In this document: in pieces, positions 30,735-33,136 of the stretch
How the letters are laid out: every line of letters begins with the position of its first letter
Position numbering within the stretch: the first letter of the stretch is position 1
NCBI GenBank assembly: GCA_002720745.1
Contig: PBJO01000007.1
Span: forward strand, 323,564-387,563
DNA from: Balneola sp.
Lineage (GTDB): Bacteria; Bacteroidota; Rhodothermia; Balneolales; Balneolaceae
DNA length: 64,000 nt
Direction of reading: 5' to 3'
Notes under the pieces: generated by a model
The model's input: the letters and a program-made list of their open reading frames with translations, nothing else
What the model was told of the DNA's origin: nothing
The model's database searches: none
Made by a program: the position numbers and the translations under genes

Positions 30735-30820
30735 AATCTCAGTTTTTTGTAATTAATAAACCATCATAAACTTAATATTATCACTATTGGTAATAGCCTC
30801 ATCATTGGAAAAAATAAATC

Positions 30821-30837
30821 CCCTATTTCAATTAGGG
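30821..30837. promoter_or_regulatory. Inverted repeat at the predicted manA transcription start
   Basis: CCCTA-TTTCAAT-TAGGG: 5-base arms with a 7-base centre, lying 3 bases downstream of the -7-like element. It could be an operator or a short hairpin at the 5' end of the mRNA. No regulator gene is adjacent. Confidence 0.35.
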
Positions 30838-30839
30838 TC

Positions 30840-30871
30840 CAAATATACCCCCCCAATCCCTAACTACACAA
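30840..30871 (-). promoter_or_regulatory. Bacteroidota-type promoter for manA
   Basis: On the minus strand, TTG (30869-30871), a 21-base spacer, then TATATTTG (30840-30847). This fits the -33 TTG / -7 TAnnTTTG pattern of the Bacteroidota housekeeping sigma factor. Predicted start is near 30833, giving a leader of about 100 bases before the manA ATG at 30734. Confidence 0.5.
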
Positions 30872-31061
30872 GGAAACTAAAAGGTTTGTCTACTCTATGG
30901 TCAAAAGGACGAACTAGATAAATTTTTAAATACTTATTTTTTTTCCATAAACATAGCAATTCAGTGTGATTCATAACTAATTGCTTTTCAGATGCATTCT
31001 GTGGATTTGATGATATCATTATTTTTCAGATACATCAAAAAAAAGTGATTAAATAATCCCA

Positions 31062-32810
31062 TTAAAACTCAATATTTGAATTACCGAAAAATACAATGTT
31101 TTGTGGAGTATCATGTAATCTACGGGCTGTATAATCCACATTTCTTTGAACATAATTAATAAGTTGACTAGTGTTATAATTACCTTTTTTTATCGCGTCA
31201 GCTATGTAGTAACTGAAAATACTATGATACTTTTGCGCAATAGCTTGCTTTGTATATAGTTGCGAATCACTCCTACCATCAGAAGAAAATAGCAACCCGA
31301 AATTAATATTTCTATTGGATAATAATGTAGAATTGAGGGCATAGAAAGCATCGTAATACTTAGCCCTAGAAATAGTTGACTCTTGATTTTCTAAAGAGAA
31401 TGAGAAATCCCCAACGATAAAAAGTTCGATGAAGCCTGCTTCTATGATATCTAGAAGTAAATCGGTTAATGATATACTGTTATTTTGCCAAGTATATGAG
31501 GCTTGATCACCTAATAAATATATTATATTTTCTTTATTATCAATTGTTACATAACCATTTACATATAATATAAATTGTTTTTTATTTTCATGGTTCTGTT
31601 TCAAAAATTCATCCCAAGTGAACCTGAACTGCTCAATTCTCGAAGCATTTATAGAAGTTCGAATACCTACAAAACCCAAACCTAAACTATTCACTAAATA
31701 TTCTTCTATGAGCTTAGAGTCCCGTTCAGCGTATTTTTTTGTTGGAAAGCTGTCTCCATAAAATTCATTACTTAATACAAAAGCTACTGCTTGATTATTT
31801 TCCGTTAATCGTACAGGTATCCCGCGTTCAACATCTACATTCCCAAAAGGCATATTTGGGATTGTGATAATGGATAACTCGTCGATGTAATCAGTCGGAC
31901 GCCAAATTAATTTGGTATCATTTTTAGAAATATAAGTTTCAGTAATCCCGTATCGAACTACATACCAATTATCTAAATCACCAAGTAATAACAATTCACT
32001 TCCCTTTACCAAATCAGTTAATATGGAATTGTTAGTATTGTCTGGATTTTGCCGGAGTGCCGTAACCTCTGACTCAACCACTACAAAACGCTCAAATATA
32101 TCTTCAACAGGTACTACTTGAATATATAGGCTATCGTTAAAATCAAGTTCGATACGTATGCTTTGATTTTCCTGAACTAGAAAATTAGTAGGGTTAATAT
32201 CTTCAAGTAAATTAATGTGATAGTTATTCTTATCGAACTTCACATTGTTTCGAATAGCAATTGCTTCAAGATCATTATAGATAGTGTAGCTTGGGGATGT
32301 ATTTGGCTCTTTTGTAGCCCTAAGAGTGTCACTTAATTGTATAACACCGGTTTGCTTCAATAATCTTTGTTCACCGGTCGAAGTAGCTTCATCAAGGCTT
32401 CTATCTCCCGACAAACCTGTAATTAGGCTTAACATACCAATACCATAAAGCATATATTGGTCAGTACTTTTTGTGGACAATAAGTCCGCAGTTAAATAAG
32501 CAGCACTAGCACCTAAAAAACCGAAAAAAGTAGAAATTAAGGAAGGTCGATAACGTTGTAAATATCTATTAGTTTGAATTTTAATGCTGTAATCATAGGT
32601 ATTTACATTCCAGACATCATAAACTAATATCGGCCTGTTCGGATCAGGTTTTTGACTAATTTCCAGAAATGAATCTTCACTTACCAAATTAAACTCAGTG
32701 CGGTCTATGGATTGCATCGATTCTACTGTCCACTTAGAACTAGTGCATGTGCTAAAGAAAAGGCCTAGTGATAGCCATTTGAATGTATATAGTATTTTGT
32801 TTAAACCCAT
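31062..32810 (-). CDS. Lipoprotein with SH3b-like and degenerate caspase-like domains
   Basis: 582 residues. The lipobox FSTC makes C22 the likely lipid anchor. Two hydrophobic segments lie at about 92-110 and 119-133. A bacterial SH3-like domain spans about 243-302 (ALRQNP, KGSELLLLGD, WYVVRYG, ETYIS). From about 340 to the end the layout follows a bacterial caspase (peptidase C14): AVAFVLSNEFYG, a KKYAERDSKLIEEYL block, FILYVNGYV, LFIVGDFSF, IFSYYIADAIKKG and a closing TPQNIVFFGN. The catalytic His position (usually SGHG) holds Y420, and the Cys position (usually DAC or DSC) holds S470, so it should be inactive. It stands alone, with over 320 bases on each side. Confidence 0.65.
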   Translation of the reverse strand: MGLNKILYTFKWLSLGLFFSTCTSSKWTVESMQSIDRTEFNLVSEDSFLEISQKPDPNRPILVYDVWNVNTYDYSIKIQTNRYLQRYRPSLISTFFGFLGASAAYLTADLLSTKSTDQYMLYGIGMLSLITGLSGDRSLDEATSTGEQRLLKQTGVIQLSDTLRATKEPNTSPSYTIYNDLEAIAIRNNVKFDKNNYHINLLEDINPTNFLVQENQSIRIELDFNDSLYIQVVPVEDIFERFVVVESEVTALRQNPDNTNNSILTDLVKGSELLLLGDLDNWYVVRYGITETYISKNDTKLIWRPTDYIDELSIITIPNMPFGNVDVERGIPVRLTENNQAVAFVLSNEFYGDSFPTKKYAERDSKLIEEYLVNSLGLGFVGIRTSINASRIEQFRFTWDEFLKQNHENKKQFILYVNGYVTIDNKENIIYLLGDQASYTWQNNSISLTDLLLDIIEAGFIELFIVGDFSFSLENQESTISRAKYYDAFYALNSTLLSNRNINFGLLFSSDGRSDSQLYTKQAIAQKYHSIFSYYIADAIKKGNYNTSQLINYVQRNVDYTARRLHDTPQNIVFFGNSNIEF

Positions 32811-33136
32811 AGTGTTTACAGAGAGGTATTTGCTATTTTTGCAGTATCAATAGGAATAACCGATTCTTCGTTTGAAATACATAATTTCTGTTTGGTTTTT
32901 TGGATGAATAGCCAAAAAAGGTTCTGTCTGTATGATTAATTCCATGGATTTAGACGAATCTGTAGAGTGATTTTTTAGGGCTGTCGTTTTTTTTAGATGA
33001 TTTCATACTGAATAATAGAGATGACTTCCCCAATATTTCAAGCAATCCTACACATATTGCAGACAACTCCTTTGCGTTGATTTATTGAAATCCAAAGTGA
33101 TAACTTCCATGATTTAAAACTAAATTTTTCATTCAT
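32811..33136. other. Gene-free region with an A/T hairpin
   Basis: 326 bases without a supported gene, between the pseudo-caspase start and the NUDIX stop. An 8-base perfect inverted repeat, TTTTTTGG (32896-32903) and CCAAAAAA (32912-32919), encloses an 8-base loop. It may be a terminator for the NUDIX unit or a regulatory hairpin. No TAnnTTTG promoter was found here on the strand serving 32810. Confidence 0.35.

Follow-up and report, generated by a model that had tools for sequence, protein, structure and literature searches.

A predicted lipid-anchored pseudo-caspase with an SH3b-type domain, conserved within one bacterial order

Pseudo-orthocaspases, bacterial proteins with a C14 p20-type domain in which the His-Cys dyad is replaced, are a published class (PMC6426788). 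Ninety percent of those described come from Alphaproteobacteria and Cyanobacteria, and 10 of 1078 Bacteroidetes sequences in the survey were counted as pseudo-variants. Tyr-Ser is a common published combination at the dyad, and the pocket Asp is reported to be retained (PMC6426788). In Trypanosoma brucei, MCA4 (TbMCA-Id) is a metacaspase pseudopeptidase that lacks the catalytic Cys and is held at the membrane by lipid (PMC10896300).

The gene described here lies in a 64,000-nucleotide stretch of DNA, which is referred to as the window. Its product shares with the bacterial pseudo-orthocaspases the p20-type domain, the replaced dyad and the Tyr-Ser combination. It differs in that Asp or Glu is the usual replacement of the Cys among its orthologues, and in that the caspase domain lies at the C-terminus of a protein that also comprises an SH3b domain and a lipoprotein N-terminal domain. 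The terms SH3, lipoprotein and Balneol- are nowhere mentioned in the text of PMC6426788. MCA4 is likewise a Cys-less pseudopeptidase with a lipid membrane anchor, but it is eukaryotic, acylated on the cytosolic face and without an SH3b or N-terminal beta domain, and is an analogue only. The principle of a lipid-anchored dead metacaspase therefore has a precedent, whereas this architecture does not. A literature search of incomplete coverage returned no description of this family, of its architecture or of its conservation across an order; the architecture is apparently undescribed, within a class that is already known.

The gene (31062..32810, minus strand) encodes 582 amino acids from an ATG start, exactly as proposed in an earlier note on this DNA, and all motifs quoted there were found in the protein. 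In relatives the same ATG sits within the final codons of the acetate kinase gene ackA (CCATGGGCATAA), and this context is retained in the window, which independently backs the start codon. The gene is present in a single copy in the genome of the window (2.17 Mb, 98.6% complete). Close relatives that carry names are Balneolaceae metagenome-assembled genomes and an uncultured Balneola.

The caspase-fold (C14-like) domain spans residues about 326-579 (31074..31835, minus). A Pfam scan of the window protein alone gave no match to any model, neither C14 nor SH3_3, and neither a PDB sequence search with this protein nor a comparison of a 40-member profile with PDB sequences recovered the caspase domain. 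It was detected solely by Pfam scans of the individual members, by comparing profiles with each other and by fold search. Peptidase_C14 (PF00656) matched 24 of 40 orthologues (best 1.3e-10), and the orthologue profile aligned over residues 316-579 with six dyad-intact caspases of the phylum (probability 99.9, E 6.5e-33), a match that chance does not explain. An AlphaFold model of the full protein (mean pLDDT 86.9, pTM 0.68) returned MALT1 paracaspase as the top Foldseek match in the PDB (E 2.4e-9), followed by caspases 7, 9 and 3 (to about 1e-6). These animal proteins share the caspase fold at about 10-15% identity, but are active proteases. Since sequence homology and structure prediction agree, the earlier assignment of a caspase layout from motif order is supported, and the protein is predicted to be a peptidase C14 homologue with a caspase alpha/beta sandwich rather than some other fold.

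The earlier note placed Tyr420 (31551..31553, minus) at the catalytic His position and Ser470 (31401..31403, minus) at the catalytic Cys position, and both residues indeed align with the dyad columns of intact homologues. Among 40 full-length orthologues, all from one order and with the named ones Balneolaceae, the Cys column holds D in 26, E in 6, S in 3, F in 2, and I, N and M in one each; no member has C. The His column holds Y in 20, H in 8, F in 5, S in 3, and A, K, I and Q in one each. The Cys is thus gone from every orthologue and the His from 32, and the pair has not been relocated, so that the family lacks the His and Cys of active C14 peptidases and falls within the pseudo-orthocaspases as a p20-type domain with a substituted dyad. 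The inserted GxAD segment (EF-hand-like loop) of active relatives is also missing in all 40 orthologues. The eight members that keep the His all belong to one family of the order (f3) and read YYYGHA, YYYGHG or YYFGHA, near the active YYSGHG. With equal weights, parsimony gives two changes for the His (one loss and one regain) and one for the Cys, on a tree whose deep branching is not resolved. Because f3 retains almost the whole active motif, several separate losses of the His are preferred over a loss followed by a regain. The Tyr-Ser pair itself was considered as a significant feature and rejected, as Ser at the Cys position is limited to the species of the window, its closest relative (L002) and one further locus (L020).

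Asp or Glu stands in for the Cys in 32 of the 40 orthologues, close to Asp468 (31407..31409, minus), which lies two residues ahead of the lost Cys and is invariant in all 40. Such paired acids (D-x-D/E at 468/470) could mean that the old active site was turned to other chemistry or to metal or ligand binding. This is very unlikely, however, because the genus of the window has lost the second acid (S, F, I or N in the Cys column) while the gene is still under selection, and because the His is gone in most members. Asp468 can also be compared with the S1 pocket of metacaspases, which is lined by two Asp. In T. brucei MC2, Asp211 and Asp95 coordinate basic substrates (PMC6426788). By motif position rather than structural alignment, Asp468 is placed at Asp211, and Asp364 in a ..RDA.. 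motif (31719..31721, minus) at Asp95. In the family to which the window belongs (f1), 25 of 26 members have Asp364, which might correspond to the pocket Asp retention reported for described pseudo-orthocaspases. As families f3 and f5 have lost Asp364, the idea of an acidic pocket does not extend to the whole order, and the conservation of Asp468 may reflect a structural role.

The N-terminus has the features of a lipoprotein, as the earlier note had recognized: a putative signal peptide (residues 1-21; 32748..32810, minus) forms a hydrophobic helix ahead of Cys22 (32745..32747, minus), the predicted lipid attachment site. Cys22 is present in all 40 orthologues, with S/T residues after it and an invariant Trp27. 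The -1 residue of the lipobox is A, G or S in 34 of 40 orthologues, with an atypical Thr in the window that otherwise occurs only in the closest relative. None of the 40 orthologues has an acidic residue at positions 1-5 after the Cys. In Bacteroidota lipoproteins an acidic stretch after the Cys favours surface display, a rule that is not established for this phylum. The lack of acidic residues here favours a predicted lipid anchor that faces the periplasm, which we consider at least as likely as the position on the outside of a membrane suggested in the earlier note.

Between the lipobox and the SH3b domain lies an elongated N-terminal beta domain of about 220 residues (23-240; 32091..32744, minus) that the earlier note had missed, together with the helical hairpin it contains. 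Modelled alone by AlphaFold (pLDDT 90.9), its predicted strands are very long (24-53, 61-89 and 143-164) and surround the hairpin (residues 91-134; 32409..32540, minus), which is rich in Gly, Ala and Ser and moderately hydrophobic. The mean best 19-residue hydrophobicity of the hairpin is 1.40 compared to 1.08 for the rest of the protein, a modest excess. From this composition and hydrophobicity we infer that the hairpin contacts the membrane. A fold search of the N-terminal domain against the PDB gave no significant match. Weak fold matches to long-strand pores (lysenin, perforin-like) and to SlyB had very low TM-scores (at most 0.2) and were discarded, and a SlyB-like glycine-zipper origin of the domain was weighed and found unsupported. 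Across 56 related genomes the domain turned up in no other protein, except as fragments that were short or scored below the threshold.

The SH3b-type domain occupies residues about 245-304 (31899..32078, minus). Its presence, which the earlier note had suggested, is borne out by Pfam SH3_3 matches in 10 of 40 orthologues (best E 4.9e-7), among them L006 with a match at 249-296. In most genus pairs this region has the lowest dN/dS of the protein.

Matches to the pseudo-caspase were obtained in 43 of 58 genomes searched, one of which (G042) is weak and covers 49 residues. They include members of families f1, f2, f3 and f5, all within one order, whereas family f4 yielded no full-length orthologue among the 58 genomes. 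Searches of G022 and G028, which are among the most reduced relatives and whose genomes are about 90% complete, did not reveal the gene either. Among 297 genomes drawn from the phylum, matches over the full length were confined to the order, and outside it the caspase domain alone was matched. The distribution looks vertical. Invariant in the 40 orthologues are Cys22, Trp27, Arg82, Gln85, Tyr87, Glu147, Trp282, Glu328, Asp468, Arg563 and Gln570. The mature protein has a dN/dS of about 0.06-0.19 within the genus, indicating that the gene is under purifying selection. The retention of a dead protease across an order suggests that it now has another job, probably the binding of a partner at the cell envelope.

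We therefore propose, with a probability of roughly 0.6, that the protein is a non-catalytic, lipid-anchored adaptor or scaffold of the envelope which uses its caspase fold and SH3b domain for binding, and that it is neither a protease nor a defence effector. The protein would be exported and tethered by a lipid, probably at the periplasmic face of the outer membrane. The Gly/Ala-rich hairpin would pack against this membrane or insert into it, and the long N-terminal strands would act as a spacer between the membrane and the SH3b and caspase domains. The caspase domain would act as a binding surface, possibly holding a basic segment of a partner uncut in an acidic pocket formed by Asp364 and Asp468, and the SH3b domain would provide a second contact, for example with peptidoglycan or a protein. 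A bolder version, which we regard as doubtful, is an envelope receptor common to the whole order in which the caspase domain recognizes basic segments of proteins without cutting them and is borne by an N-terminal fold that associates with the membrane and is without a known relative.

Dead homologues frequently regulate active relatives, and the protein could instead regulate an active protease of the caspase type or act as its decoy, by substrate competition or by forming inactive heterodimers. One genome of the same family (G301) indeed encodes a lipoprotein caspase with an intact dyad (locus L076). However, active caspase matches are absent in most sampled relatives, and no other Peptidase_C14 match was found in the genome of the window or in eight other searched genomes of the genus, by a search that misses divergent members, the window protein included. 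As the genome of the window is 98.6% complete, this argues against regulation of a sister caspase, and we consider such a role quite unlikely. A defence or cell-death function is extremely unlikely. Bacterial caspases occur in such systems, and the closest NCBIfam match of the family is the EACC1-associated caspase model, which matched 18 of 40 orthologues. Nevertheless, PADLOC matched none of the 40 members, the catalytic dyad is missing, and both the fixed chromosomal synteny across the order and the vertical-looking distribution argue against a defence system, leaving the association with defence raised in the earlier note unsupported.

The envelope adaptor or scaffold proposed here would place a dead caspase in the cell envelope with a new partner domain. 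Most of the conserved dead bacterial caspases known so far come from Cyanobacteria and Alphaproteobacteria, and in this case one is found in a whole order of another phylum. Two lipoprotein caspases of the same phylum (L076:4826-6106, minus, and L075), one of them in the same family, have intact dyads. As in the pseudo-caspase, their N-terminus carries a lipobox, and their caspase domain, which is homologous, is preceded by a similar linker (D[VI]E..[NI]P). They differ in that the dyad (YYxGHG/FYSGHG and DACFSG) and the EF-hand-like loop are present, and in that another N-terminal part (PEGA in L075) takes the place of the long-strand domain. With a sister family that keeps the His and intact lipoprotein caspases in the phylum, the transition from a protease to a binding protein can be traced, which would make this a tractable case for what the caspase fold does after cutting ends.

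The earlier note saw no obvious partner gene. This holds for function, but not for position, since relatives set the gene between ackA and the phosphate acetyltransferase gene pta. The layout across the order is greA, a nudix gene, a probable outer-membrane barrel gene in most relatives, ackA, the pseudo-caspase gene, in some cases an EamA transporter gene, pta and the suf genes. Such a slot, together with a start codon that lies within the last part of ackA, could mean that the protein assists acetate metabolism in concert with AckA and Pta. In the window, however, both enzyme genes are relics. The ackA relic (32807..33132, minus) consists of fragments at 33010-33132, 32922-32996 and 32807-32875, which come from the beginning, an early part and the end of the gene, with stops and an internal deletion; the deletion is also present in the closest relative (G008). 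A fragment match to pta (30777..30974, minus) covers residues 1-66 and contains two stops. As no intact ackA or pta was found in the genome, the acetate kinase - phosphate acetyltransferase route has apparently been lost in the lineage of the window. The pseudo-caspase gene lies intact and selected between these decayed genes, and its function is therefore probably independent of AckA and Pta. In family f4, pta directly follows ackA in the three readable genomes (L120, L126 and L128) and the pseudo-caspase gene is missing between them, suggesting that it was inserted elsewhere or lost in that family. In addition, the two enzymes are cytoplasmic, whereas the pseudo-caspase is apparently exported. 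An acetate-related role is thus highly improbable, and we rejected this link because of the decay of ackA and pta beside an intact pseudo-caspase gene. One search of the genome of the window did not find the barrel gene. In most relatives ackA is adjoined by this gene (represented by L085:11344-12747, minus), which has homologues in 18 loci and whose conserved product is exported, is probably a beta-barrel and has no Pfam match.
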